NCBI GenBank assembly: GCA_023249375.1
Contig: JAHFCT010000001.1
Span: forward strand, 150,112 to 214,111
Reading direction: 5' to 3'
From: Gemmatimonadota bacterium
Lineage (GTDB): Bacteria; Gemmatimonadota; Gemmatimonadetes; Gemmatimonadales; Gemmatimonadaceae
DNA: 64,000 nucleotides
Position 1 is the first letter of the stretch; each line of letters begins with the position of its first letter. The notes beneath the pieces were generated by a model, which saw only the letters and a list, made by a program, of their open reading frames with translations, ran no database searches and was not told the origin of the DNA. Of the stretch, positions 49,156 through 64,000 are shown piece by piece. The position numbers were made by a program, and so were the translations under genes.

Positions 49156-50172
49156 ATGACAGGCGCACGGCGGTCGCCCGACATCGCGGTCTGCATTCCA
49201 ACGTACAATCAGGCAGCGTTCGTCGCGCGCGCGGTCGAGAGCGCGTTGCGACAGACCGACTTCCCGCAGGTGCAGGTGTGGGTCTCCGATGACGCCAGCA
49301 CCGATGACACCGCGGCCGTGATGACGGCGCTCTGCGCGCGCGATCCGCGCGTGCACTATCACCGTCACGACAAGAATCTCGGCATCGCCGAAAACGCATC
49401 GTGGGTGCTCGAGCAGCCGCTGGCGGACATCGTCGTCCGTCTCGACTCCGATGACCTGCTGCTTCCCGATTACCTGCGCGTGCTGCACGACCGTCTCATG
49501 CGGTACCCCGATGCCGGCTACGCGCATTCGGCGGTCGCCGTCATTGATCAGCACGACGTGATACAGAGCGAAAGCCACATGTTCCGGCCCCGCGAGTACG
49601 TTGACGCCGACACGGCGCTGCGCGAATCGCTGAAGGGCTACAAGACCGTCGCCAACATCCTGATGTTCCGCGCCGAAGCGCTGCGGCGCGCGAACTTCTA
49701 TCACGGCCGACCGAACTTCGCGGAAGACTACGATCTGTCGGTGCGGCTGGCCGACCTCGGGTATGGCAACGTCTTCGTGAACGAGGTGCTGGCGCAGTAC
49801 CGCGTCTGGGGCGACGCGCAGGGCACGCGGCATCACCGCAAAGCCGAGCATTTGCGCGGCCTCACGCAGCTTTTCCACCGGTCGTTTGTCGCCGCGTACG
49901 AACGGCGCGGATGGGACGTGGCCGAGGTGCGCCGCGCGCGCACGCGAGTGGCCGTGAACTTTGCGACGGCGATCTTCATGCCGTGGATCACGGACGAGGA
50001 GCGCACCGAGCTGGTTCCGCTGCTGCTGGGACTCGACCACGGAGCGCGCGTGCGGTGGCGCGTGTTTCTGCTGCGCCTCGGATTCGCGCCGATGTTCGCG
50101 GCGCTGGGGCGTCTTGATACGTTGGTGCGGCGCACGGTGAAGAACGCGCTTGCCGCGGTCGGCAGGTCCTAG
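49156..50172 (+). CDS. GT2 family glycosyltransferase
   Basis: A 338-residue GT-A enzyme: AVCIPTYNQAAFVARAVESAL (the first part), VWVSDDASTDDT for nucleotide binding, the metal site VRLDSDDLLLPDYL, and NFAEDYDLSVRLADLG carrying the catalytic-loop acid (ED). A C-terminal helical region of about 110 residues may contact the membrane or a partner. Its TAG overlaps the TAG of the convergent GT4 gene by 4 nt (50169-50172), so no terminator exists between the opposing operons. The donor sugar is unknown. Confidence 0.88.
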   Translation: MTGARRSPDIAVCIPTYNQAAFVARAVESALRQTDFPQVQVWVSDDASTDDTAAVMTALCARDPRVHYHRHDKNLGIAENASWVLEQPLADIVVRLDSDDLLLPDYLRVLHDRLMRYPDAGYAHSAVAVIDQHDVIQSESHMFRPREYVDADTALRESLKGYKTVANILMFRAEALRRANFYHGRPNFAEDYDLSVRLADLGYGNVFVNEVLAQYRVWGDAQGTRHHRKAEHLRGLTQLFHRSFVAAYERRGWDVAEVRRARTRVAVNFATAIFMPWITDEERTELVPLLLGLDHGARVRWRVFLLRLGFAPMFAALGRLDTLVRRTVKNALAAVGRS

Positions 50173-51290
50173 GCGCGCCCCTCGCCGCGCGCCTGGCGGC
50201 GCCCTTCCCCGGCCGCTTCGCGCTCCACAATCTCGCGAAATCGCGACTCGAACGCTCCCACCGCATACGACTCGGCGTGCCGCCGAATGATCGATGCATC
50301 CCACGCGATCGACGCGGCGCGCTGCACGGCCTTCGCGAGTGACGCGGCCGTCGGTTCGTCGAACAGCACGCCAGTGATGCCGTCACGCACGGTCTCCGTG
50401 GCGCCACCGGCGCGCAGCGCGATGACCGGACGGCCGCTCGCGTTCGCTTCCAGCGGCGTGATGCCGAAGTCCTCTTCACCGGGGAAGATCAGCCCGCGGC
50501 ACTCGCGCATCGCGCGCGCCACACCCTCGTCATCCACCCGCCCGCGGAACGTGATCGTCGGGCCAGCCAGTGCTTCGAGCGACGCACGAGCCGGCCCGTC
50601 GCCGATGATCTCCAGCGGCAGGCCAAGCTGCGTGAAGGCCGCCACGGCAAGATCGATGCGCTTGTAGTACGCGAGGCGCGCCACGACGAGATGACTCGTC
50701 CCCGCGCCGCTCCCCGCGGAGAAGCGCCCGACATCGACCGGCGGATGCAGCAGCTCGCTGTCGCGGCCCCAGCAGCGCTGCACGCGTTCCTGCACGACCC
50801 GCGAGTTCACGACGATATGCGTCGGCCGCGACGCCGTACGCACATCCCACGCGCGCAGCGCCGCGATCACCGGCGGCAGCGCCAGACGGGTGAGCGCGCC
50901 GAATCCTTCGCGCGCCACGTAACGGTCGTAGTCCCACACCCAGCGCATGGGCGTATGGCAGTAGCAGACGTGCACGGCGCCCGGCGGCGTACGCGCCGCC
51001 TTGGCCCACGCGCTGCTGCTGCTGACGATGACGTCGTAGCCGCGCAGGTCGACGCTTTCAATGGCGAATGGGTACAGCGGCAGCAGCGCGCGGAAATGGC
51101 GCCGCCACGCCGGCAGGCGCTGCATCCACGACACGCGGACGTCGGCATCGCGCAGTGAGGCCGGCATCGCGTCGCGGTCGGCGATCGTCGTGAAGATCGG
51201 CGCCTCGGGCCACAGCCGGTGGAAGCTCTCCACGACGCGCTCCGCGCCGCCCATCTGGTTCAGATAATCGTGCACGATGGCGACGCGCAT
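50169..51290 (-). CDS. GT4 family glycosyltransferase (WbaZ-like)
   Basis: A 373-residue GT-B retaining transferase. The N-terminal VAIVHDYLNQMGGAERVVESF and the FHRLWPEAPIFTTIADRD stretch are typical of WbaZ-like mannosyltransferases. YCHTPMRWVWDYDRYV follows, and the donor-binding C-terminal domain has LVVARLAYYKRIDLAVAAF and an E-x7-E motif in GEEDFGITPLEANASG. It is the most downstream gene of the long minus-strand glycan operon. The ATG at 51290 shares one base with the upstream stop (TGATG). Confidence 0.9.
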   Translation of the reverse strand: MRVAIVHDYLNQMGGAERVVESFHRLWPEAPIFTTIADRDAMPASLRDADVRVSWMQRLPAWRRHFRALLPLYPFAIESVDLRGYDVIVSSSSAWAKAARTPPGAVHVCYCHTPMRWVWDYDRYVAREGFGALTRLALPPVIAALRAWDVRTASRPTHIVVNSRVVQERVQRCWGRDSELLHPPVDVGRFSAGSGAGTSHLVVARLAYYKRIDLAVAAFTQLGLPLEIIGDGPARASLEALAGPTITFRGRVDDEGVARAMRECRGLIFPGEEDFGITPLEANASGRPVIALRAGGATETVRDGITGVLFDEPTAASLAKAVQRAASIAWDASIIRRHAESYAVGAFESRFREIVEREAAGEGRRQARGEGRA

Positions 51291-52441
51291 CAGCCGGCCA
51301 CCTCGTCGAGCACCGCGCGCACACCGCGCACCATGGCCTCCAGGCTGAAGGCCGCGCGCGCGTGGACCGCGCCCGCCGATGCGAGCGCTGCGGCGCGGAC
51401 CGGCTCCGCACGCAGACGGGCCACCGCGCGCGCCAGCGCGGCTGCGTCGCCCGGCGGTACGAGCACGCCGGTGGTTCCATTGGTGATGATCTCGCCGACA
51501 CCGCCCGCCGCCGCCGCAATCACCGGTCGCCCGGCCAGCATGCCCTCCACCAGCACACGGCCAAACGGCTCCGGGAGCGTCGAGGCGTGCACCACCACGT
51601 CGCACGCGTGCATCAGCGGCGCGATGTCATGACGGAATCCAAGGAACTTCACCCGGTCCGACACGCCTCGCCGCATGGCCTGCGACTGCAGCCCAGCCGC
51701 GAACTCGTCTTCGCCGAACAGCGGCGCGCCGACCACCCACAGGTGGCAGTCCGCGGGTAGCTGCGCGAGCGCGTCGATGGCAATCTGCTGGCCCTTCCAC
51801 GCATGCAGCCGGCCAAATATCGCCATCACGTACGCAGCGTTCGGCGACAGTTCGGCGCGCAGCGCGCGTGCGGCACCGGCGGGCACGTCATCGAACGACG
51901 CCGCCGCAATTCCATTGTGCACCACCCGCACCCTGCCGCCATCGCCTCCGGCCGCCACGAACGCGTCGGCCGTGGCGCGCGAGTTCGCGATGACGCGCGA
52001 TGCGCGCCAGTTGGCGAGCATGACCGCGCCGCGCGTGTTCAGCGCGCTGAAGTGCGGCGGCCCGAGCAGGTCGCGCAGATGCCAGACCACGGGGAGGTGA
52101 CATCGCCCGGCGGCGAGCGCCGCGACAATGAACGCCTTCTCGGAGTTGGCATAGAGCACCCGGGCCGAGTGCGCCTCACGCGCCACCTCGCCGGCCAGCC
52201 GCCACGCGGCCGCCAGCGCGCGCGGCGACGGCACGCGGCTCCCCTTCTTCACGTTTGCGAGCGCGCCCATCGGCAGCACGCGCACGTCGGCGCCACGCGC
52301 GCTGAGCGCTTCGCGAAATGGACCGTCGGCAAACAGGCGCACCCGCACGTCCTCGCCGAGTCCGGCGACCACGTCGAGCATCGACAGCTCGGCGCCGCCC
52401 AACACCCCCGTGTGATCGAGCGCGAGGATGCGCGCCGTCAC
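51290..52441 (-). CDS. GT4 family glycosyltransferase
   Basis: A 383-residue GT-B transferase. ILALDHTGVLGGAELSMLDV is the acceptor-domain entry, VIANSRATADAFV and VHNGI mark the domain hinge, GRLHAWKGQQIAIDAL starts the donor domain, and PEPFGRVLVEGMLAGRPVI carries the E-x7-E donor site. The start is a GTG at 52441 overlapping the stop of the AsnB-glycosyltransferase fusion gene (GTGA), so translation of the two is probably coupled. The sugar specificity is unknown. Confidence 0.9.
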   Translation of the reverse strand: MTARILALDHTGVLGGAELSMLDVVAGLGEDVRVRLFADGPFREALSARGADVRVLPMGALANVKKGSRVPSPRALAAAWRLAGEVAREAHSARVLYANSEKAFIVAALAAGRCHLPVVWHLRDLLGPPHFSALNTRGAVMLANWRASRVIANSRATADAFVAAGGDGGRVRVVHNGIAAASFDDVPAGAARALRAELSPNAAYVMAIFGRLHAWKGQQIAIDALAQLPADCHLWVVGAPLFGEDEFAAGLQSQAMRRGVSDRVKFLGFRHDIAPLMHACDVVVHASTLPEPFGRVLVEGMLAGRPVIAAAAGGVGEIITNGTTGVLVPPGDAAALARAVARLRAEPVRAAALASAGAVHARAAFSLEAMVRGVRAVLDEVAG

Positions 52442-55400
52442 GGGCGCCGCACTCCATCGTACACGCGGCGCACCTGCTCAACGACGACCGGCCAGTCGTT
52501 GCGACTGCGGGCGAAGGCGCGGCATTCATCGGCCGTTGGCAGAGGAATGGCCCCGCTGAGCGCATCGGCGAGCCCCTGTGCAATCGCGGCCGACGACGTG
52601 TCGGCGAGCACGAGTTCCGAACTCAATCCCTCGATGGTTTCCGGAAGCCCGCCAACGGGAGTGACCAGCACCGGCGTCCCCGCGGCGAGCGATTCGGGAA
52701 CGATGAGCCCGTAGCCCTCCAGCGCCACCGAGGGCACGACCGTGACATCAGCCGCGCGGTACGCCGCCGGCAGGTCGTCTTCGGAGACGAAGCCGACCAG
52801 CCGGCAGTGCTCCTCGAGCCCCGCGCGCTGGATCTGCGTGCGCAGTTCGTCCTCGATGGTCCCCGTCCCCGCGATCAGCACGAGCGCCTCCGGCACGCGC
52901 CGGCGCAGCGCGGCCACCGATGCAATCAGCTGCCCCAGTCCCATGCGGTGCGTCAGTCGCCGCACCGCGAGCACGATGCGACGGTCGGCCGGCCAGCCCA
53001 GGCGTTCGCGGCACTCTCCGCGCGTGGCTTCGATGGCGAACCGCTGGCAGTCCACGCCGCCGGGGATGACGTGAATTCGCTCCCACGGCACGCCGAACGC
53101 GTCGTGCAAAATGCGGCCAAAGGCGCTCGACAGTACAATGCACGCATCGGCGCGTTGATAGACATAGCGTTCGACGTCGGCCTTGATGCGCGTCGTGAGG
53201 CCGTGCACGTGCTCGGCCGCCGTCTCCTGCGCCCACGGCCCGTGGAAGTGAAAGACGAATCGGCGCCGGCGATCGCGCAGGATGCCAAGCAGGGCCACCG
53301 CGTACAACGCGAAGTGCGCGACGACGAGCGCGTCGGGATCGTTGGCGACGAGTGCGATGGCTTCCGCACGAAGCCGGCGAAGGCGCTGCGGCAGCGCCGC
53401 CCGGAACGGCGCAACACCGAGCACGCGCCCGCCGGATTCGGCGATCACGCGGTCAGAGCCGGCAACCAATCCGCGCACGTCGACGCCTACCGTTGGCAGG
53501 TGTCGCACGAGCTCGAAATACACCCGGTTGAGCCCGCCGGGCCGTTCGCCAAACCACTCCATGCCCACCTGGATGGTGCGAATCGGCGCGGCGAGCGCGC
53601 CTCGCGCCCCGCCGCCCTCGCGCAGCGCGTCCAGTGAGTCCTCACGCTGGAGCGTGCCGTCGAGCATGAGCCGCGACCAGATCTCGAGCACGAGCAGCGT
53701 GAAGATCTGATCGCCCCACTCGCCGGCGCCGCTCTGATGCTCGGCCAGCAGGCGCCGCGTGAACTCGGGCCGCACCCAGCCGCGGTCGTGGAACGACTCG
53801 CTGTCGAGGGCGGCGCGCACGTACGGTCCCATCGCGCCGCGCAGCCAGCGCGATGCGGGCATCACGAAGCCGCGCTTGCGGCGGTAGAGCACGTCGCGCG
53901 GCACAAAGCGCGACGCCAGGCGCTTGAGCAGGTGCTTGGTCTCCCATCCGCGAAGACGAAGCGCGGTGGGAATGGTCGCCGCAAACTCGATCATCTCCGT
54001 GTCGAGCAGCGGCGACCGCGCCTCGAGTGAGTGCGCCATCGACGCCACATCGGCCTTGGCGAGCAGCTGGTCGGGAAAATACGTGCTGAAGTCGCCGAAG
54101 AGTGCGCGGTCCGCATCATCGGTGCCGTCGGCACGCTCCCACACCGCGCGGTACATCGCGTCAGGGTCAAATTCGCCGAGCGTCGAGACAAAACCGGATG
54201 CGTAGGCGGCGGCGCGCAGGTCGCGGAAGCCGCGGTCGTACGTGAAGCTGTCGATCGCCGAACCGCGGCCGGCGCGTGCAAGCAGCATGGCGCGTTTCAG
54301 CGGTCCGGTGGTTCGCGACCGCAGCGCGTCGTCCGCCAGCTGCCGCAGCGCCGCCGGCAGCAGCCGGCGGTACGTCGACGCGGCACGCGCAACCATTGGG
54401 CGTGTGTACCCGCCAAACAGCTCGTCGCCGCCGTCGCCATTGAGTGCCACCACCATGATGTCGCGCGAAACCCGAGACAGGTCGTGACTCGGCACAATGG
54501 AGACGTCAGCCAACGGCTGCCCGTAATGCCAGACGATGCCGGGAAGTTCGTTCACCGCATCGGGGCGCAGCAGGCGTTCGTGAAGCTTCACCCCCAGATG
54601 CGTCGCCACGCGGCGCGCAAACGGACGCTCGTCAAACTCGGGGTCATCGAAGCCAACGGCCACGGCCTCCACCGGCGTGGAGGTCTCCTGCGCCGCGAGC
54701 GCCGTGAGCAGCGACGAATCGACGCCACCGGAAAGGAAAATTCCGACTGTGCGGTCGGCGACCAGGCGGTCGCGCACCGCCCGCCGCGCGATACGCTCCA
54801 CCTCGTCGAGGACGTCAGTCTCGTTCATCGCGGTCTTTTGCGCGTACGAGACGTCCCAGTAGCGCTCCACGCGGCACACACCGGTGTTTGCGTCAAACGA
54901 CAGCGCGTGTGCCGGCGGCAGCGCCTGCACACCCTGCCACACCGACATCGGCGCCGGCACCGCCTGATACGTGAGGAACGCGTCGATGGCGCGCGGGTCT
55001 ACACTCGGGCGGTGCGGCAGCAGTTCGAGCAGCGCGTTCAACGTGGAGGCGAAGGCCAGCGTCCCGCCCTGATGCGAGTAGAAGAACGGCTTCTTCCCCG
55101 CGCGATCGCGCGCCGCGCGCAGCACGCGCCGTTCGGCGTCCCAGACGGCGAAGGCAAACTGTCCGTGCGCGCGGCGCACGGTCTCGTCAAATCCCCACGC
55201 GCGCACGCCCTGCAGCAGCACCTCGGTGTCGGAGCGCCCCCGAAAATGCGTCCCCGCACCAAGCGCCGCGCGCAGCCGTTCGAAGTTGTAGATCTCGCCG
55301 TTGAAGACAATGACGAATCGGGCGTCCTCGCTCACCATCGGCTGGTGACCGGCCGACGACAGGTCGATGATCGCGAGACGGCGCGCGCCGAGGCAGACGC

Positions 55401-55521
55401 CGTCGCCCTGCCACGTGCCGCCGTCGTCGGGACCGCGGTGCACCATGCGCGCGTTGGCGCGTTCGATGCGCTCGCGTTCGCCGCCGGCGCCCGCACGAAT
55501 CAGCCCGCAAATCGCGCACAT
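52438..55521 (-). CDS. Fusion of glutamine-dependent asparagine synthetase (AsnB-like) and GT4 glycosyltransferase
   Basis: A single 1027-residue frame with two complete enzymes. Residues 1-628 form an AsnB-type amidotransferase: nucleophile Cys2 (MCAICGLI), glutaminase segments MVHRGPDDGG, HQPMVSED and VFNGEIYN, the ATP-pyrophosphatase loop LSGGVDSS (263-270), and NGDGGDELFGGY. A linker (about 629-646) joins a GT4 domain (647-1027) with MEWFGERPGGLNRVYFELV, VIPGGVD, AVRRLTHRMGLGQLI and the E-x7-E EGYGLIVPE (935-943). In glycan clusters AsnB homologues amidate uronic acids or other carboxyl sugars, so the fusion could couple amidation and transfer (inference). No stop or convincing restart occurs at the junction (53583-53640). 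It lies in the middle of the glycan operon. Confidence 0.9.
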   Translation of the reverse strand: MCAICGLIRAGAGGERERIERANARMVHRGPDDGGTWQGDGVCLGARRLAIIDLSSAGHQPMVSEDARFVIVFNGEIYNFERLRAALGAGTHFRGRSDTEVLLQGVRAWGFDETVRRAHGQFAFAVWDAERRVLRAARDRAGKKPFFYSHQGGTLAFASTLNALLELLPHRPSVDPRAIDAFLTYQAVPAPMSVWQGVQALPPAHALSFDANTGVCRVERYWDVSYAQKTAMNETDVLDEVERIARRAVRDRLVADRTVGIFLSGGVDSSLLTALAAQETSTPVEAVAVGFDDPEFDERPFARRVATHLGVKLHERLLRPDAVNELPGIVWHYGQPLADVSIVPSHDLSRVSRDIMVVALNGDGGDELFGGYTRPMVARAASTYRRLLPAALRQLADDALRSRTTGPLKRAMLLARAGRGSAIDSFTYDRGFRDLRAAAYASGFVSTLGEFDPDAMYRAVWERADGTDDADRALFGDFSTYFPDQLLAKADVASMAHSLEARSPLLDTEMIEFAATIPTALRLRGWETKHLLKRLASRFVPRDVLYRRKRGFVMPASRWLRGAMGPYVRAALDSESFHDRGWVRPEFTRRLLAEHQSGAGEWGDQIFTLLVLEIWSRLMLDGTLQREDSLDALREGGGARGALAAPIRTIQVGMEWFGERPGGLNRVYFELVRHLPTVGVDVRGLVAGSDRVIAESGGRVLGVAPFRAALPQRLRRLRAEAIALVANDPDALVVAHFALYAVALLGILRDRRRRFVFHFHGPWAQETAAEHVHGLTTRIKADVERYVYQRADACIVLSSAFGRILHDAFGVPWERIHVIPGGVDCQRFAIEATRGECRERLGWPADRRIVLAVRRLTHRMGLGQLIASVAALRRRVPEALVLIAGTGTIEDELRTQIQRAGLEEHCRLVGFVSEDDLPAAYRAADVTVVPSVALEGYGLIVPESLAAGTPVLVTPVGGLPETIEGLSSELVLADTSSAAIAQGLADALSGAIPLPTADECRAFARSRNDWPVVVEQVRRVYDGVRRP

Positions 55522-55541: not shown

Positions 55542-56663
55542 TCACGACGCCGCCTCGGCGAGCACGTCGAAGTACTCCGACGCCACGCGGTCCCACGCAT
55601 AGCGCCGCGAGCGTTCGAGCGCCGCCGCCGACATCGCGGCGCGGCCTGCGCCGTCGTCGCGCAGCGTCACCAGCGCCGCGCGCAGCGGTTCGCCGCCAAA
55701 CGCCGTGAGAAATCCGTTCACGCCCGATGTCACCAGCTCTTCGGTGCCGTTGATGGCGTGCGCCACAATGGGCAGTCCCGAGGCCGCCGCCTCGAGCGTC
55801 ACCAGCGAGAATGCCTCATACCGCGACGGATGCATCAGCACATCGGCGAGGGCGTACCAGCGTTCCGGCGTGGTGGTCTTCCCCACAAAGCGCACCTGCG
55901 CCGCGGCGCCGCGCCGTGCGGCATGCGTGCGCATCGCCGCCTCGTCACCACGTCCCACGATGCACAGCAGCGTGTCGGGCAGTCCCGCCACCGCGTCAAT
56001 GGCGTCGCGCAGTCCCTTGCGCTCCCAGTCGCCGCCGCAGAACAGCACCACGAACGCGCTCGCCGGAACGTCCAACGACGCACGCAGCTGTCCCTTCACC
56101 GCCGCACTCGGCGCGGGACGGAAGACCGCGTGATCAACCCCGTTCGGCACGACGGTGATCTGCCGTTCAGGCACGCCGTAGAACTCGTGCAACTCGCGCG
56201 CCGTGCCGTGCGACACGGCGATGACGCGCCGCAGCCGCCGCGAACCGTATGCGGCCTGCTCCTGCCGCACAAAGACCCGCTGTGCGGTGCGCTGCCAGGC
56301 GCGTCCGATCGCGCTGCCGCCGCGGAGCCCGCCAAATCGCGCGGTGAACGCGGCATGGCAGTACTGCGCCGTAATCACGTCGGCGTCGAATGCGGAGGCG
56401 CCAATGCAGTTGCTCAGCGTGCATCCGGCGCGGCGCTCAGCAGCTCTCGCGGCACGCGCAAAGAGATAGGACCCGACGACGAGCGGCCGCGGCGCCGGCG
56501 GCACCGGCACCCATTGCACCGGGGCATCGGAGAGTTCGCAGCGCGACGCGATGACCGTCACCGGCACCCGGCGCGACACGCGGGCGAGAATTTCGGCAGC
56601 GGCGCGCTCCTGGCCGCCATGCCGGTGCACTTGATGCGCGATGAACGCGAGGGAGAACGTCAT
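55542..56663 (-). CDS. GT4 family glycosyltransferase
   Basis: A 373-residue GT-B transferase. FIAHQVHRHGGQERAAAEIL, then IAVSHGTARELHEFYGV with VVPNGVDHAVF at the hinge, CGGDWERKGLRDAIDAV in the donor domain and SRYEAFSLVTLEAAASGLPIV (in part; E-x7-E). The ATG at 56663 has a strong GGAGGA ribosome site in front, which suggests independent translation after a 49-bp gap from the preceding GT2 gene. It ends 20 bp before the AsnB-glycosyltransferase fusion gene. Confidence 0.9.
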   Translation of the reverse strand: MTFSLAFIAHQVHRHGGQERAAAEILARVSRRVPVTVIASRCELSDAPVQWVPVPPAPRPLVVGSYLFARAARAAERRAGCTLSNCIGASAFDADVITAQYCHAAFTARFGGLRGGSAIGRAWQRTAQRVFVRQEQAAYGSRRLRRVIAVSHGTARELHEFYGVPERQITVVPNGVDHAVFRPAPSAAVKGQLRASLDVPASAFVVLFCGGDWERKGLRDAIDAVAGLPDTLLCIVGRGDEAAMRTHAARRGAAAQVRFVGKTTTPERWYALADVLMHPSRYEAFSLVTLEAAASGLPIVAHAINGTEELVTSGVNGFLTAFGGEPLRAALVTLRDDGAGRAAMSAAALERSRRYAWDRVASEYFDVLAEAAS

Positions 56664-56712: not shown

Positions 56713-57672
56713 TCATCGGCCGATGGGCGGCGGCACCGACAGATGCCGCGGCGAACGCCGCGCGGTGGCCGCGCCCGACCAGCGCCCCGCGCGCGATGCC
56801 CGCCAGCGCCCCACGGCCGTCGCATCGCCATGGATCACGCGCCGCAGGTGCTGCGCCAAGCCCGGCCCTTCTTTGGTGCCGACCAGCATCGCCCACGTCA
56901 GATACAGGGCGCGCGATATCGGGCCGCGTCCCTCGAGCAGTTCCACCGTTTCGTTGTGCACCGCGTTGGTCAGCGGAGGTTCCGAAAAGACGCCGCGATG
57001 CAGGTTGTCATCGTTGTGGCGCGGCGCCACGTCGTGGTGCACCGCCACGGCCGGATCGTAGATGAGCCGCCAACCGGCGCGCCGCAGCGGAAGACAGACG
57101 CCGAGTTCCCAGTACATCTGCGCGCCCTCGCCCAGCAGCCGGCCATCAAAACCCACGGCGTGCAGCAGTGGCGCGCGGAACGAACAGTTGGCCCCCTTCA
57201 GCACGTCCACATCGCGCGCCGGCCCGGCGCCGAGGTGGTGATTGCCAATCACGCGCCCAAACCACTGGACGATGCCGACGCGAGTCACGTTGCCGCGTTC
57301 GTACGGCTGCCAATCCCGCCCGCCCACGCCGCCGATGTCGGGCGACGCGTCAAAGTGCGCGAGCAGTCCGGCAATCCAGTGCTCGAACGGACGCGCGTCG
57401 TCGTCGGTCAGCGCAATGATATCGCCGCTCGCCGCGTCAAGCGCCGCCTGCATCGAAGCCACGACACCGTTGGCCGACGTGGCGGCAATGCGCACCGGCA
57501 GCCCCGCTAAGCGTGACGCCTCAGCCGCGGCGATCGTAGCCGCGTCGCCCTCGCGCACGCCAACGATCACCTCGTCAGGCGCTCGGGTCTGCGCGTGCAA
57601 CGCCGCGAGGCAGCGCGTCAGCGATTCCGGGCGGCGGTAGCTCGGAACCAGCACGCTCACGCGAAAGGTCAT
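56713..57672 (-). CDS. GT2 family glycosyltransferase
   Basis: A 319-residue GT-A enzyme. SVLVPSYRRPESLTRCLAAL, VIVGVREGDAAT, IALTDDDARPFEHWI (metal-binding Asp triad) and GANCSFRAPLLHAVGFDGRL are visible. An EGAQMYWELGVCLPLRRAGW stretch holds the likely catalytic acid. The C-terminal 70 residues are basic. ATGA overlap with the upstream GT2 gene at 57669-57672. Donor and acceptor unknown. Confidence 0.88.
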   Translation of the reverse strand: MTFRVSVLVPSYRRPESLTRCLAALHAQTRAPDEVIVGVREGDAATIAAAEASRLAGLPVRIAATSANGVVASMQAALDAASGDIIALTDDDARPFEHWIAGLLAHFDASPDIGGVGGRDWQPYERGNVTRVGIVQWFGRVIGNHHLGAGPARDVDVLKGANCSFRAPLLHAVGFDGRLLGEGAQMYWELGVCLPLRRAGWRLIYDPAVAVHHDVAPRHNDDNLHRGVFSEPPLTNAVHNETVELLEGRGPISRALYLTWAMLVGTKEGPGLAQHLRRVIHGDATAVGRWRASRAGRWSGAATARRSPRHLSVPPPIGR

Positions 57673-58529
57673 GGGCCGCGCTCCAGCGGAAACTCGGCCG
57701 CGCTCGTGCGCTCCCACGCAGCGCCCCGCCGGATCACCGTCCACACCTCGGCGCTGAGTGCCCAGAGGGCACGCAGCGTGTCCGGTCCCTTCGGCCGCAC
57801 GCGGATATTCACCAACCGGCTCAGCACCAGCTCGCGCAGCAGCCGCCAGCGCACTGGACGCGGCGCACCGTGCTTGTAGAGATAGCGCACCTCGGCGGCG
57901 CGATAGCGGCCAAGCTGCGTGCCCGGCGGCTGGCGGCGCGGTGGATGATCAACACTCGCGTCCGGCACCCACGTTGGCGCGTGACCCGCCGCACGCAGCC
58001 GTTCGCGAAGGTCTGCATCTTCCATGTGCGGAAACGGAAAGCCCTCATCGAAACCGCCGATGGCCTCGAACGTCGCGCGGCGAACCGCAAAGTTGCACGA
58101 CCAGAGCACGCCGCCAGTGAGATTCTCCGGCGCATGCTCGCGCGGCGACTTCATTCCGGCGGCACAGGTGGTCATTCCCTCCAGGACGTCGCCGCGGGAT
58201 GCCGCCGCGGCGTAGGCGCGCAGCCATTCCCTCGACGGCACCACGTCATCATCGGCAAAGGCGAGCCACGCGCCTCGTGCCGCGCGCGCCCCGGCATTGC
58301 GATTGGCGGCCGGGCCGCGGCGCGGGCCGCGCACGTGGCGCACCCACGGCGCCTTGGCGCGAAGCCACGCGTCGGTCGCATCAAAGTCGCCGTCGTCGGC
58401 AACGATGACCTCGTAACGCGCCGCCTCCACGGACTGCGCCCCGGCCGCAAGCGACGCGAGACACAGCGTCAGCGAGTCGCGGCGATCGCGCGTGGGAATG
58501 ACCACCGACCAGTCGGGGGCACCGTTCAT
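57669..58529 (-). CDS. GT2 family glycosyltransferase
   Basis: A 286-residue GT-A enzyme. SVVIPTRDRRDSLTLCLASL, VIVADDGDFDATDAWL, the AFADDDVVPSREWLRAYA metal site, NFAVRRATFEAIGGFDEGF and FPHMEDADLRERLRAAGH (ED catalytic acid) are all typical of family 2. It is coupled by ATGA overlaps on both sides, to the GT4 gene upstream and the GT2 gene downstream. The specificity is unknown. Confidence 0.9.
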   Translation of the reverse strand: MNGAPDWSVVIPTRDRRDSLTLCLASLAAGAQSVEAARYEVIVADDGDFDATDAWLRAKAPWVRHVRGPRRGPAANRNAGARAARGAWLAFADDDVVPSREWLRAYAAAASRGDVLEGMTTCAAGMKSPREHAPENLTGGVLWSCNFAVRRATFEAIGGFDEGFPFPHMEDADLRERLRAAGHAPTWVPDASVDHPPRRQPPGTQLGRYRAAEVRYLYKHGAPRPVRWRLLRELVLSRLVNIRVRPKGPDTLRALWALSAEVWTVIRRGAAWERTSAAEFPLERGP

Positions 58530-59680
58530 GCGTCGCTCCACTCGGGCCGGCGCCCCGCGGCACACGCGCGGAACATCTCGGCGTATCGCGGCGCCAACAT
58601 GTCCCAGCCAAATCGAGCGCGCACCCACGCCAGACGCGCACGCCGCTCGTTCTCGCTTGCGGACGCGGTCAGCGCGCGACGCACGAGCGCCACGGTCGAC
58701 GTTGGGTCCGTCGTGTTGCCCAGCATGGCCTGCGGCCCGAGGATGTACCGGGTGTTCGGGTTGTCGTGCGCAACGCTCGGCAGTCCGGCCGCCATTGCTT
58801 CCACGTAGACCAGCCCGAACCCTTCGTCGAGTGACAGCAGGGCGAAGGCGTCGGCCGCGTCATACGCATCGGCCATGCGCTCGCGGGGCCACGTCCCCAG
58901 GAACGCGCCGTCGCCCAGCCGCTCGCGCACGCGCGCCCGCAGTGCCGGCGTCTCCGCCGTCTCCTGGCCCAGCATCACGAGGAATGGGCGGTCGTCGCCC
59001 ATCGACGCCACGGCGTCCACGAGCACATCCATGCGCTTGAGCGTCGAGCCCAGCATCCCCACCGAGAGCAGCAGCCGCTTGCCGTCGGGCACGCCGAAAA
59101 CGCGTCGAGTGGCTTCGTCGCGTGACACGTTCCGCTCACGAGGAAGTGCGGGTAGTTCGAATCCGTGAGGCAGCACGAACATCCGATCCCGCGCTTCACC
59201 GCGCGCGATCGCCGCGTCAAAGTGTGCCGGCGTCATCTGCTGCACAAAGTCGCAGCGCGTAAACGGCCGCGTGGTCGGGCCGCCATTGTAGTAGACCAGG
59301 CGAAACCGCTGGCCACTCACGCGACGCCAATGCCAGCACGCGTTGCCGAAGTTCAGGTCGGCGAAGTAGACCACGTCCGGCCGCCACGACAACAGGTGCG
59401 GCAGGTACCCGGCGAAGAACGACACCTGTTCAATGAAGTACGATCCCCGCCCCGCCATGCGCGCCGCGGCGCGTGCACCTGTAGAATCGCGCGGCAGGTT
59501 CCACACCGAACGCTCGCCATGCTTCAAGTCGCCGCCGCCCCCGTAAACGGTGAGCGCAAGCCCGGGCGTTCCGCGCAGGGCCGCGTGCAGTTCGCGCGTG
59601 ACCGCTTCGAACCCGCGGAACTGCCGTCCGAGTCCCGTGCACGGCAGCGCGACACGCACTACGCCAGGCGCGCGGCTCAT
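58526..59680 (-). CDS. GT4 family glycosyltransferase
   Basis: A 384-residue GT-B transferase with a less canonical N-terminal half (VALPCTGLGRQFRGFEAVTR). Clear donor-domain signals are LLLSVGMLGSTLKRMDVLVD, FLGTWPRERMADAYDAADAF, and SLDEGFGLVYVEAMAAGLPS (E-x7-E). VLPHGFELP marks the hinge. It overlaps the methyltransferase stop by ATGA at 59677-59680, and its own stop overlaps the next GT2 gene. Confidence 0.88.
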   Translation of the reverse strand: MSRAPGVVRVALPCTGLGRQFRGFEAVTRELHAALRGTPGLALTVYGGGGDLKHGERSVWNLPRDSTGARAAARMAGRGSYFIEQVSFFAGYLPHLLSWRPDVVYFADLNFGNACWHWRRVSGQRFRLVYYNGGPTTRPFTRCDFVQQMTPAHFDAAIARGEARDRMFVLPHGFELPALPRERNVSRDEATRRVFGVPDGKRLLLSVGMLGSTLKRMDVLVDAVASMGDDRPFLVMLGQETAETPALRARVRERLGDGAFLGTWPRERMADAYDAADAFALLSLDEGFGLVYVEAMAAGLPSVAHDNPNTRYILGPQAMLGNTTDPTSTVALVRRALTASASENERRARLAWVRARFGWDMLAPRYAEMFRACAAGRRPEWSDA

Positions 59681-60522
59681 GCGCGCCGCCCCACCCACAT
59701 GCGGTAGTCGGTCACGCGCTCCTTCCAGCGCTCCCACGCCGCACGGTCGTAGTTGGCGTCATAGAGCAGATAGTCATGCACAATTTCGCGTGTCACCCCG
59801 CGCAGCGCGAGCGTGGCCTCCACCTGGCCCCACTCGATGTGATCATCCGGCCAGATGTGCAAATCGCCCTCTGGCATCCAACGCGGGTTGAACCAGCGCT
59901 GCCAGACGAACAGTGGGCGAATGCGATTCCAGTAGTTGCGTGGCGTGATAAACCGCGTCCAGCGCTTGGGTGGAAAGACCCAGGCCTCGAGCGCAAACTG
60001 CGCGTGCAGTGGATTACCCCACGACGCATCGTGGCGCTCGTGATCCAGATAGACGAGCCCGCGCCCGCGCACCACGCGGGCCATCTCCGCAACCAGCGCC
60101 AGATAGTCGGGCACGTGGTGCAGCACCGAGTAGCACGCCACCACGTCGAACGACGCGTCGGCAAACACCTGCAGCGATCGTCCGTCGATGCGCTGCGTAC
60201 CGTGCCGGCCCGTCGAGCCAAATCGGTCGGCGACTTCTCTCAGGCATCCCGCGGACACGTCGGCGGACACCACCTGTGCGCCGGCCTCCAGAAAGCGGGC
60301 CGTCAGGTTGCCGGTCCCCGCACCGATGTCGAGCACACGCGCTGGATGCGCTTTGGTATGACCGGCCGCCGTGAGCACTTCGCGCACCGCGTCGGCAAGA
60401 CGCTGCTGCTCGACGGCGTTGAAGATCTCGGGATGCCTGCCATCGTACGACGACGCGACGCGGTCGTACGCCGCCGCGTTGCGCGCGATGTCGCGGTCCG
60501 CCGAACGCTCGTCGATGGCCAT
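59677..60522 (-). CDS. Class I SAM-dependent methyltransferase
   Basis: A 281-residue UbiE/Methyltransf_11-type protein. Motif I is VLDIGAGTGNLTARFLEAG, followed by VVSADVSAGCLREV and the DVVACYSVLHHVPDYLALVA motif IV region. The C-terminal 110 residues are rich in Trp and Arg (FVWQRWFNPRWMPEGDLHIW), a feature I have seen in methyltransferases of glycan clusters acting on bulky or membrane-linked substrates. The ATG at 60522 comes 3 bp after the deacetylase stop. Its product probably methylates a sugar of the polymer or its lipid carrier (inference). Confidence 0.86.
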   Translation of the reverse strand: MAIDERSADRDIARNAAAYDRVASSYDGRHPEIFNAVEQQRLADAVREVLTAAGHTKAHPARVLDIGAGTGNLTARFLEAGAQVVSADVSAGCLREVADRFGSTGRHGTQRIDGRSLQVFADASFDVVACYSVLHHVPDYLALVAEMARVVRGRGLVYLDHERHDASWGNPLHAQFALEAWVFPPKRWTRFITPRNYWNRIRPLFVWQRWFNPRWMPEGDLHIWPDDHIEWGQVEATLALRGVTREIVHDYLLYDANYDRAAWERWKERVTDYRMWVGRRA

Positions 60523-60525
60523 CGT

Positions 60526-61524
60526 CTACGCCTCGAACCATGCATCGAGTCGCCGCGCGAACTCCGCACCGTCCCACGCCTGCGCTTCAACGCGTGGCAC
60601 CGCCGTACGGCGATTCCACCGCCATGCCGCCCGCGCATCCGTCGTAAACGCAGCCTCGTAACCCGCTGCCCGCACCGCCGACTCGGCGCGGCGTCCCACC
60701 GCCGCCCCCTCGCCAAACGGATACGCAAAGAACCGGGGCGCTGCGCCCAGCCACTGCGAGAGCGCCGCGCGACTGTCCGCGCATTCAGTCTGCTGCTCCG
60801 CCGCCGAACGCTGGCCAAGCACCGGATGCGTCACCGAGTGGCTGCCGATCTCAATGAGCGACGAGCGAGCCAGCGTCTGCAGTTCGTGTACGCCTAACCG
60901 ACGGTGCGCATCGGCGGCGCAATCGTCCGTGCCGCTCCAGGCCTTGAGCTGCGCCGCAGCCTCGCGCTGCGCCGCCGCGCTCAACGGTCGGAGCCACGCC
61001 GAGAGCGCCGCGTAGAGTGGCCGCCGCGTGTCCTCGGCGCGGGCGCCAGGCAGTGGAGCACCCGCCGGTTCATCGAGCCGCCACGTGAATCGATTGCCCT
61101 CGGCGTTCAGCTCAAGCGACTCCGGCAGCGCGTGTGCGGCATAGACGGCGCGCGCCAACACGTCCCACCAGAACTCGCCCGGCGCGTCCACGCCGCATGT
61201 GGTCACGAAGACCGTGGCCGGAACGTGATTCACCTCGAGCAGCGGCAGCGCCGCATAGAGGTTGTCCGCGTAGCCGTCATCGAACGTCACGGCGACGGCG
61301 CGTGCGGGCAGCCGCCCGGCGCGTCGAGCCGCTTCAAACTCAGCCAGCGGCATGGGCTGCGCCTGGGCGCGCAGCACCGCGAGATGCGCCGCGAACAGTG
61401 CCGGAGGCACATCGAGCCGCGCCGGGTCGAGGCGCGGCCCCGACACCCGGTGATAGCACAGCACGACACCGCGGGACGACCGGCGCCGCACCTTGCGGGC
61501 AACGCGTGCACCCCAGGAACGCAT
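60526..61524 (-). CDS. Polysaccharide deacetylase family protein (NodB homology)
   Basis: A 332-residue carbohydrate esterase 4-type protein. The catalytic/metal motif is VAVTFDDGYADNLYAAL, the zinc His pair is in EIGSHSVTHPVLGQ, and FFAYPFGEG is the third conserved segment. No signal peptide is seen, so it may act in the cytoplasm or on lipid-linked sugars at the inner face, for example removing an N-acetyl group. GVVLCYHRVSGPRLDPARLD at the N-terminus is common in cluster-associated deacetylases. It lies 3 bp after the Wzy-like gene. Confidence 0.9.
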   Translation of the reverse strand: MRSWGARVARKVRRRSSRGVVLCYHRVSGPRLDPARLDVPPALFAAHLAVLRAQAQPMPLAEFEAARRAGRLPARAVAVTFDDGYADNLYAALPLLEVNHVPATVFVTTCGVDAPGEFWWDVLARAVYAAHALPESLELNAEGNRFTWRLDEPAGAPLPGARAEDTRRPLYAALSAWLRPLSAAAQREAAAQLKAWSGTDDCAADAHRRLGVHELQTLARSSLIEIGSHSVTHPVLGQRSAAEQQTECADSRAALSQWLGAAPRFFAYPFGEGAAVGRRAESAVRAAGYEAAFTTDARAAWRWNRRTAVPRVEAQAWDGAEFARRLDAWFEA

Positions 61525-61527
61525 GCG

Positions 61528-63015
61528 CTAGCTCGGTCTGGTCGCCGGCGGCGCTGCGTGGAACTCGCGCACGAGACGGCGCGACCGCAGCCCCTTGCCC
61601 GTCGCGAAGTTGTACGCGTGCGCGCTGCACGCAAATCCGTACGCACCCCAGAACATCGCGCCAATCGCGCCGCTGAAGATGTCGCCAATGAACAGCACGC
61701 TTAACAGCGCCCACATGGCCGCGCGCGATGCATTCGCAAACGAATCCTCGCGCGAGTCCCTGAACCGCGACAGCGTGAGCAGCTGCCCGAGCAACCCCAG
61801 CATCACCAGCGACCCGCCCGGCCACCCCAAAACGTAGAAGACTTCAAGAAATCCATTGTCGATCGATGCCTGACGTCCGGTCGCCGTGCCGAGCTTCGTG
61901 CCGCCGCCCGTCGCACCGAGCCCCTCACCCTCCGCGCGCGCGCCGAGTGCCTGCGTCGCCAGGTTCGAGAGGACGAGCCGCTGACGCACCGAGCTGTCTT
62001 CATTGAGCGAGGCAAACGACGCGATGCGCGAAAAAATCGTGTCGCGGAACACGTCCAGCGACAGCACGGGAACCGCCACCGCCACCATGAACAGCAGGAA
62101 GATCCAATTGCGTCCCATCCGGCGCACGGGACCCATCAACTGCACGATCAGCAGTCCCACGATCAGCGCCACCCAGCTCGAGCGGGCGCGCGTCAACAGC
62201 AGCGCCAGCAGTCCCAGCGTCAGCGAAATGACCATCCCGCGGCGCGCCGTACCCAGCATGAAGATCATCCCGACGAGCAGCGCCACGGCATACGGGCCCG
62301 GCGAGTTCATCGTCCCGAACGCGCGAAAGCCAAATCGCACCGGCACGCCAATGGAAAACACTTCCGCCATCTCCATCCAGTAGCGGTCCCAGGCCGGCAT
62401 CGTGGCAACCTGGTAGAGGCCGTACGCGGCGATCAGCGGCAGCGCCCATTGCAGGAAATCGAGAAACGACTCGCGCAACGCCGGCAGGATGCGCCAGTTG
62501 AGGATCAGGTGCATCGAAAAGCTGATCGGCCCGATCCACGTGATCAGTGCATACGTGGCGGGAAACATCCCGACCTTCAGCACGCCGATGAAGAAGCCAT
62601 ACGCCACGCCCGCCAGCGTCAGCGTGAACGGGTACAGCAGCGCCCCGCGCAGCTCGCGCGCGCGATAGAGGAGCGTCAGCATCGCCACCATCGTCGCCAG
62701 TGTCGGTGCCACCAGCACGATGTTGGCTGGCTTGAACCCGTGTTGGTAGTCGATGACGCGCCGGACGAACGGCGTGAAGAACCAGAGGAAGAACACGAAC
62801 GCCACGTAGCGGCTCGGCGCGCGGTAGTATGACACGAGCGCCGCCGTCACCGCGGCCGCCACGAACAGAATCGGATAGAGTCCGCCGCCCGCCCCAAGGA
62901 GGCCGGCGAGCGTCACTATGCCGAAGAGGATGAAGGCGACGGTTGACGCCGACGCGGTCGAGCGTCCGCTGCGCTGCGCGGCCGGCGCCAACGGCCTGGC
63001 CGTCACCGCTTCCAT
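61528..63015 (-). CDS. O-antigen polymerase/ligase-like membrane protein (Wzy/WaaL type)
   Basis: A 495-residue protein with at least 11 hydrophobic helices. The large central periplasmic loop and the LLALLLTRARSSWVALIVG segment (Arg in a conserved R-x-x-W/R-x3-G-like context) are typical of the Wzy_C/O-antigen ligase family. The FRAFGTMNSPGPYAVALLVG helix (residues near 235-255) is common in exopolysaccharide polymerases. It would polymerise repeat units or ligate glycan at the periplasmic face. The ATG at 63015 follows the unknown membrane gene by 15 bp. Confidence 0.85.
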   Translation of the reverse strand: MEAVTARPLAPAAQRSGRSTASASTVAFILFGIVTLAGLLGAGGGLYPILFVAAAVTAALVSYYRAPSRYVAFVFFLWFFTPFVRRVIDYQHGFKPANIVLVAPTLATMVAMLTLLYRARELRGALLYPFTLTLAGVAYGFFIGVLKVGMFPATYALITWIGPISFSMHLILNWRILPALRESFLDFLQWALPLIAAYGLYQVATMPAWDRYWMEMAEVFSIGVPVRFGFRAFGTMNSPGPYAVALLVGMIFMLGTARRGMVISLTLGLLALLLTRARSSWVALIVGLLIVQLMGPVRRMGRNWIFLLFMVAVAVPVLSLDVFRDTIFSRIASFASLNEDSSVRQRLVLSNLATQALGARAEGEGLGATGGGTKLGTATGRQASIDNGFLEVFYVLGWPGGSLVMLGLLGQLLTLSRFRDSREDSFANASRAAMWALLSVLFIGDIFSGAIGAMFWGAYGFACSAHAYNFATGKGLRSRRLVREFHAAPPATRPS

Positions 63016-63030: not shown

Positions 63031-63681
63031 CTAACGCGGCACACCGGAATGTCGGGTGCGCTGCTCGTCGCCGTCACGGCTCCGTCGCGCCCGCCGGATG
63101 CGGCGCCGTACCGTCTGGAACGCGTACGCCAGCAGGGCCACCGCAATGGTCGATGCGGTGCCGTGCGCAAACAGCGAGAACGGCGCCACGCCGGCGTCCA
63201 CCAGCTTGGAAGCATCCGGCGCGCCGGTGTCCACCGGTCCCTGCATGCCGTTCATCTTCGCCAGCAGCGAGACGTCGATGCCAAGCATCATGTTCGGCAG
63301 GGTCGAACTGAAGCCCGGGCTCAGGCGCGGGTCGCTGGCGCGGAAGACGAACATCGTCGTCAGCCACAGTCCCATGAGCATCAGCGTGCTCAGGTACACC
63401 ACGCGCGGCGGCGGCAGGTACCATTTGCGCGGCGTGCGCGACGAGTGCCGCCGTCGGCGTCCGGCCCACGGAGCGTCGAGAATCCACCACGTCAGCACCG
63501 AGACGAGCATGGTGCAGCCGAGGATCAGCGGCGCGACGAGCATCTCGGTGCCCGCCAGCAGGATGCCCGAGATCATGGCCGCGCTGAACTGCCCCGACGA
63601 CGGCACGCGGTCGGTCCCGGTATCGAAGATGTCGGGAACGAGCTCGGACTGCTTGCGGTCGGTTTCTGAATGTATGGCCAT
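63031..63681 (-). CDS. Unknown membrane protein in the polysaccharide operon
   Basis: A 216-residue protein I do not recognise. A polar N-terminus (about 35 residues) is followed by a long hydrophobic stretch (about 38-68, probably two short helices), a basic cytoplasmic turn, a helix near 95-112, a periplasmic stretch of about 65 residues, a last helix near 172-188 and a very basic C-terminus (RRRIRRARRSRDGDEQ). The low similarity to any family, together with its fixed place between a tyrosine autokinase and a Wzy-like gene, suggests an accessory of polymer assembly or export; that is inference only. Confidence 0.7.
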   Translation of the reverse strand: MAIHSETDRKQSELVPDIFDTGTDRVPSSGQFSAAMISGILLAGTEMLVAPLILGCTMLVSVLTWWILDAPWAGRRRRHSSRTPRKWYLPPPRVVYLSTLMLMGLWLTTMFVFRASDPRLSPGFSSTLPNMMLGIDVSLLAKMNGMQGPVDTGAPDASKLVDAGVAPFSLFAHGTASTIAVALLAYAFQTVRRRIRRARRSRDGDEQRTRHSGVPR

Positions 63682-63702: not shown

Positions 63703-64000
63703 CTACCTGCCGTACTCGTAATAGTAGCCGTAGCCCTGACGATAGCGCGACCCGCGGCGCAGTTCGACGTCGTTGAGCACGGCGCCCGCCAGGACGACCT
63801 GCACATTCTTCAGCTGCGCCACCGCGAACTTGAGCTCATCTCGGTCCGTCTTGTCCGAGCGCGCCACAAGCAGCAGCGCATCGGCATTCGCCGCAATCAG
63901 CGCCGCATCGGTGAACAGGTTGAGCGGCGGCGTGTCGAGAAGCACGTAATCGTACTGCTGGCGCAGGCGGTCGAACAGCGGCTGCAGCCGCGTGGCCACC
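63703..64000 (-). CDS. C-terminal part of a bacterial tyrosine autokinase (Wzc/CpsD-like), start outside the window
   Basis: The visible 99 codons are the 3' end of a BY-kinase. YDYVLLDTPPLNLFTDAALI contains the Walker B-like VLLDTPP of the family, and ADALLLVARSDKT follows. The C-terminus is a tyrosine-rich cluster, YRQGYGYYYEYGR, the site of autophosphorylation in these kinases, with five Tyr in its last nine residues. BY-kinases regulate chain length and export of exopolysaccharide by cycles of Tyr phosphorylation. Walker A and A' motifs and any Wzz domain lie beyond the right edge. This gene precedes the whole minus-strand glycan operon. Confidence 0.9.
   Translation of the reverse strand, partial: VATRLQPLFDRLRQQYDYVLLDTPPLNLFTDAALIAANADALLLVARSDKTDRDELKFAVAQLKNVQVVLAGAVLNDVELRRGSRYRQGYGYYYEYGR

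Follow-up and report, generated by a model that had tools for sequence, protein, structure and literature searches.

An AsnB-type amidotransferase joined in one chain to a GT4 glycosyltransferase in a Gemmatimonadota exopolysaccharide operon

Introduction

Genes resembling asnB are common in bacterial polysaccharide clusters, and for most of them the sugar and the step that they serve are unknown. The amidation chemistry itself is established for class II amidotransferase/AsnB enzymes. The closest described systems are WbpS and WbqG, which have been placed in the TIGR03108 family and are the nearest kin of Porphyromonas gingivalis PGN_1234 (PMC7468200). When PGN_1234 was deleted, the uronamide form of a 2,3-diamino-glucuronic acid derivative disappeared (PMC7468200). 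All three proteins combine a glutaminase with a synthetase domain and are described as separate amidotransferases with no fused glycosyltransferase. The same work left open where in its pathway WbpS acts (PMC7468200).

Proximity to glycosyltransferases recurs in other described loci, there as separate genes. In the psc1 locus of Rubrivivax gelatinosus, a WbpS-like gene lies between group 1 glycosyltransferase genes, and mutation of wbpS alters both the growth mode and the form of the colonies (PMC3684757). In the XrtA/PEP-CTERM type found on Vibrio alfacsensis pYa108, asnB is directly followed by a GT4 gene within an exopolysaccharide cluster, together with an exosortase. Plasmid-borne asnB-GT4 pairs are annotated in both Gemmobacter fulvus and V. 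alfacsensis.

For asparagine synthetase proper, the human enzyme (ASNS) provides the reference. Its activity is lost on substitution of Glu364 by Ala or Gln or of Asp367 by Ala, and in modelling the amino group of the ligand lies in a pocket formed by Glu364, Asp367, and Asp400 (PMC6748925).

Here we describe a gene from a Gemmatimonadota genome in which an AsnB-type amidotransferase and a GT4 glycosyltransferase form a single polypeptide. Searches of the open-access literature brought up no account of an AsnB-GT4 fusion. What appears new is the single-chain architecture, as both families and adjacent separate genes of the pair are already known.

Results and Discussion

Architecture of the fused protein

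The window, meaning the whole 64,000-nucleotide stretch of DNA that was analysed, encodes the fusion as a 1027-residue protein (52438..55521, minus strand) with an ATG start at 55521 and a stop codon at 52438-52440. A preliminary description, made from the letters alone, had proposed one frame carrying a complete AsnB and a complete GT4 enzyme. Pfam analysis agreed and the strand, left unstated there, is minus. In order, the matches are GATase_6/7 (residues 31-165), Asn_synthase (242-616, 287 bits), Glyco_transf_4 (661-827), and Glycos_transf_1 (836-1004), all far over their cut-offs.

Three segments can be delineated, with approximate ends set by alignments and the structure model. The AsnB-type amidotransferase part (residues 1-622; 53656..55521, minus strand), assigned by Pfam, residue alignment, and fold match, pairs a class II glutaminase (Cys2, R48, N74, E76, and D98, all intact) with an ATP-PPase/synthetase domain containing the SGGVDS pyrophosphate loop (residues 264-269; 54715..54732, minus strand). 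The C-terminal part (residues 647-1027; 52441..53583, minus strand) is a GT4 glycosyltransferase by Pfam and fold match, as it has a GT-B fold with Glyco_transf_4 and Glycos_transf_1 and, by residue alignment, an E-x7-E motif running from E935 to E943 (52693..52719, minus strand). The linker between them spans about residues 623-646 (53584..53655, minus strand), close to the 18 residues first estimated.

The key residues, which had appeared intact at first reading, are also invariant. Alignment of 16 fused homologues showed no change in Cys2, SGGVDS, Lys549, or E935/E943. By alignment, K549 is the equivalent of human Lys466, the catalytic lysine of the synthetase site. S264, D268, and S269 were present in 133 of 133 AsnB-like proteins compared.

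An AlphaFold2 model built from 68 aligned sequences contained two well-folded parts (mean pLDDT 95, pTM 0.71), joined by a disordered stretch around residues 641-643 where confidence was lowest. These values indicate that the individual folds are reliable but that the placement of the AsnB and GT4 parts relative to each other is uncertain. The N-terminal part matched TsnB9 (Z 39.5), Escherichia coli AsnB (Z 35.6), and human ASNS (Z 33.3). With the latter two it shares, beyond the fold, the glutaminase residues, the SGGxDS loop, and the Lys466 equivalent. The C-terminal part matched MshA and sucrose-phosphate synthase (both Z 39), BshA, and other GT4/GT-B enzymes at Z 35-39. Although MshA, PimA/PimB', HepE, and BshA have the same GT-B fold and E-x7-E motif, identity to such GT4 enzymes was only about 14-25% in fold alignments, and the Gemmatimonadota protein differs from them in being fused to AsnB.

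Conservation of the fusion

The same full-length frame, free of stop codons, was found in 16 species from four genera of one Gemmatimonadota family, in a sample made up of 60 relatives plus 395 genomes from the phylum. Five of these species belong to genus g1 (including that of the window), nine to g19, and one each to g45 and g46. The other 15 proteins share 56-81% identity with that of the window. In a further g1 genome (G004), residues 399-1026 lie in one frame before the contig ends. Linkers vary in length and sequence between fused species, as illustrated by a GGAGGAGGAGGA expansion in genome G009.

Open full-length frames with differing linkers in 16 species indicate that the junction is not a sequencing error. 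That a frameshift, missed stop, or assembly artefact joined two genes, a concern raised in the preliminary description, has practically no probability. Apart from the fact that the named fusion-bearing relatives are metagenome assemblies (Gemmatimonas sp., Gemmatimonadetes, Gemmatimonadaceae, and one 'bacterium'), nothing speaks for such an artefact, and the 16 conserved frames speak against it. Neither do all close relatives carry two separate genes, the other finding named there as fatal, since the closest ones are fused. The fusion is genuine.

Both halves are under purifying selection. Within g1, dN was 0.09-0.21 and dS 0.8-1.1, and the dN/dS ratio was about 0.1-0.2 both before and after the junction. 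The fused genes share no internal start codon preceded by a Shine-Dalgarno sequence, and separate internal translation of the GT4 part was rejected on this basis. Other long AsnB frames of Gemmatimonadota (L088-L099) were considered as further fusions and rejected, as none had a GT4 match in frame; what makes the long ones longer is open frame that precedes the AsnB domain.

The synthetase pocket departs from asparagine synthetase

Comparison with human ASNS revealed substitutions in the synthetase pocket. Glu364 is replaced by Asp363, Asp400 by Leu486, and Arg403 by Lys489, with the pairing of Leu486 and Asp400 resting on an ungapped extension of the alignment. The equivalents of Asp367 (Asp366), Glu368, and Lys466 are retained. 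Two of these changes are widespread: across the wider AsnB-like set, Asp occupies the 364 position in 118 of 133 proteins and Lys the 403 position in 121 of 133.

A role for the AsnB part as a true asparagine synthetase that provides asparagine is therefore most improbable. Its score against the broad model TIGR01536 (423 bits, cut-off 267) would allow for such an activity, but it failed PRK09431, the AsnB model (230 bits, cut-off 499), and lacks the Asp400 and Arg403 equivalents. Another gene of the same genome does pass PRK09431. This asparagine synthase B, on contig C64, scored 808 bits and keeps the GEGADE and DCARANK motifs. With a separate, genuine AsnB in the genome, asparagine formation does not depend on the fused domain.

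The best NCBIfam model of the AsnB part was instead TIGR03108, at 514.6 bits and below the cut-off of 816.9. It is through this shared best model, at a sub-threshold score, that a sequence kinship to WbpS and WbqG is suggested. No match to exosortase (TIGR02602) was found in the window's genome (G000), which is 96% complete, and the XrtA context of TIGR03108 consequently does not apply. An XrtA/PEP-CTERM system was ruled out on the absence of a detected exosortase together with the missed TIGR03108 cut-off. The locus thus differs from the V. alfacsensis pYa108 type in this respect as well as in gene fusion, while the order of asnB and GT4 in an exopolysaccharide cluster is the same.

Operon setting

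The fusion lies in what is, in outline, a Wzy-type exopolysaccharide operon with several glycosyltransferases, in accord with the setting first suggested and with a location in a polysaccharide cluster as for WbpS-type amidotransferases. Its order on the minus strand is a polyprenyl glycosylphosphotransferase and a Wza-like export protein, both beyond the window, then a Wzc-like chain-length/tyrosine kinase whose C-terminal end is at 63703..63999 and whose gene runs past the window. There follow a Wzy/O-antigen-ligase-like protein (61528..63015; 29.9 bits, just below the Pfam cut-off of 31.7) and, by Pfam, a polysaccharide deacetylase (60526..61524), a SAM-dependent methyltransferase (59677..60522), a GT4 glycosyltransferase (GT4_f, 58526..59659), and two GT2 glycosyltransferases (GT2_e, 57669..58628; GT2_d, 56713..57672). 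Immediately upstream of the fusion is GT4_c (55542..56663), conserved in this position in g1, g19, and g45. Downstream are two more GT4 genes, GT4_b (51290..52441), whose start overlaps the stop of the fusion, and then GT4_a (50169..51290). GT4_b is a constant downstream neighbour and also stands beside unfused GT4 orthologues. All of these genes are on the minus strand. No flippase was identified in the operon, and the exopolysaccharide cluster itself holds no uronate gene.

Between the Wzy-like gene and wzc, the minus strand also encodes a 216-residue protein (63031-63681) with no Pfam or NCBIfam match. It is 69-78% conserved in three other g1 genomes.

Predicted uronic-acid supply and a proposed mechanism

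Candidate genes for a carboxylated sugar were located elsewhere in the genome. A run on contig C120 (L107:4417-11324), which is not the contig of the exopolysaccharide operon, encodes by family-model prediction an NDP-sugar dehydrogenase, a DegT aminotransferase, a GFO/IDH/MocA oxidoreductase, and a hexapeptide transferase. Beside it are a UDP-glucose-dehydrogenase-like gene and a sugar epimerase/dehydratase. The run is apparently a Wbp-like UDP-diaminouronate (UDP-diacetamido-uronate) operon, and we infer that its genes correspond to WbpA/E/B/D. Carboxylated nucleotide sugars are thus probably available to the cell. Nucleotide-sugar dehydrogenases were also found in two relatives without the asnB gene (G150 and G017), so their presence supports availability and not linkage. 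They were accordingly rejected as a discriminator between AsnB-bearing and AsnB-less genomes.

Amidation of a carboxylated sugar, with a uronate as the predicted substrate, is the best reading of the AsnB part. This portion of the original interpretation is supported by the TIGR03108-like family, the altered aspartate pocket, and the predicted UDP-uronate genes. Its second portion, a coupling between the AsnB and GT4 halves, is put forward here as a hypothesis.

By a narrow preference, we regard the protein as a WbpS-like uronic-acid amidotransferase tethered to a GT4 enzyme that handles the same sugar within the Wzy-type operon. Glutamine would be hydrolysed in the N-terminal part, and the ammonia would pass to the synthetase site. 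There, ATP would activate the carboxylate of the uronic acid as an acyl-AMP, yielding a carboxamide, as by WbpS and WbqG. The GT4 part, of GT-B fold and expected to be retaining, would add one sugar of the repeat unit. Most likely it would take the amidated sugar as donor, or would have an amidated sugar in its acceptor. The tether may keep amidation and transfer at the same assembly site. Within this scheme, we infer the uronate substrate, the order of amidation and then transfer, and any benefit of the tether.

The completeness and folding of both domains, their conservation, the shifted pocket, and the position of asnB directly 5' of GT4 in split relatives all argue for this tethered amidotransferase. 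Against it stand GT4 orthologues that lack asnB (G150 and G017), a cluster devoid of uronate genes, a TIGR03108 score of 515 against the required 817, and the pTM of 0.71.

Fused, split, and asnB-less relatives

Comparison of related loci revealed two further arrangements. In genus g13 (G022, G348, and G368), asnB and GT4 are two neighbouring genes, with asnB directly 5' of GT4. The asnB stop and GT4 start overlap by 4 bp as ATGA in G022 and G348, while about 130 bp separate the called genes in G368. Within this gap (L103:8700-8832) are CATTCCGAGCGAGCG-like repeats, apparently a small repeat element that was inserted between the two genes.

In G150 and G017, asnB is absent from the locus, although a 53% identical GT4 orthologue, the neighbouring GT4_b, and other cluster genes are all present. 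G150 retains the order GT4_f, GT2_e, GT2_d, two further GT4 genes, GT4_c, GT4, and GT4_b, with about 30 bp at the place where asnB would be. A GT4 with 51% identity was also found in an Acidobacteriota genome (G540), with no asnB within the 14 kb read. The occurrence of the GT4 orthologue without asnB in equivalent clusters indicates that amidation is an add-on and that the glycosyl transfer step can exist alone. The amidotransferase is thus an optional component, linked to this one glycosyltransferase, in an assembly line that is conserved in other respects.

Such optional use would also fit decoration after or beside transfer. In that case, the AsnB part would amidate a uronic acid that already forms part of the lipid-linked oligosaccharide, either in the acceptor or as the sugar just added. 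The GT4 donor would then be an ordinary sugar or an unamidated acid, and the fusion would position the amidotransferase on the growing chain, with the flexible linker letting the AsnB domain reach the product. We consider this improbable, at about one chance in five. As the pathway position of WbpS is unresolved (PMC7468200), there is no precedent for either order of amidation and transfer.

The split genus bears on whether the tether matters at all. In a tree of AsnB sequences, g13 was nested among the fused proteins, with G255 outermost (bootstrap 100, SH-aLRT 97). Such a topology would require either a fission in g13 or more than one fusion event. A single clade of fused proteins is accordingly at odds with the tree; when forced, it was only marginally rejected (AU p = 0.049). 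Given this value and the long branches, the tree does not settle the choice between fission and repeated fusion.

The fusion might be a near-neutral event in which two co-transcribed, already overlapping genes were joined, leaving two independent activities and a tether without function. This explanation can coexist with uronate amidation and is a rival only to the view that the tether matters. The 4-bp stop/start overlap in two split relatives, the poorly conserved linker, and the position of g13, which suggests that fission or repeated fusion is tolerated, are all in its favour. However, the frame has been kept over 16 species and four genera, at identities as low as 56%, and a shared internal start for the GT4 part, with its own Shine-Dalgarno sequence, is lacking. 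Balancing these points, we hold a functionless tether to be possible but rather unlikely.

We are equally tentative about a true bifunctional enzyme, in which the amidated sugar is handed directly to the fused glycosyltransferase or the chain is amidated by the tethered domain. Were this so, carboxylate amidation would be physically coupled to glycosyl transfer, and one bacterial family would have gained it by addition to a transferase that already existed. The natural fusion names the glycosyltransferase partner of an AsnB-like amidotransferase. As the relatives show one assembly line in three forms (fused, split, and without asnB), comparison of their glycans would show what amidation adds and when.

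Adjacent asnB and GT4 genes in other phyla

No AsnB-GT4 fusion was present among the listed strong AsnB matches from 1,029 genomes of three other phyla, a sample searched with strict E-value limits. These comprised 347 Acidobacteriota, 398 genomes from the phylum of a proteobacterial genome, and 284 from the phylum of a Myxococcales genome. Long AsnB frames were checked singly as candidate fusions and rejected, with no GT4 in frame in any examined.

Adjacent asnB-GT4 pairs recur in these phyla. A GT4 gene starts right behind 22 of 80 distinct unfused AsnB-like genes with enough downstream sequence, a fraction drawn from a non-random set of genes in clusters where GT4 genes are frequent anyway. 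In several phyla, asnB and GT4 lie in the same frame with one stop codon between them (L052:11649-11656; L132/L134; L153; L168).

A different in-frame fusion was observed in an Acidobacteriota genome (G742, L140:2690-7792), where GATase_7 and Asn_synthase domains precede a zinc-type ADH domain and a GFO/IDH/MocA oxidoreductase domain. A GT4 gene lies directly downstream of this AsnB-oxidoreductase fusion.
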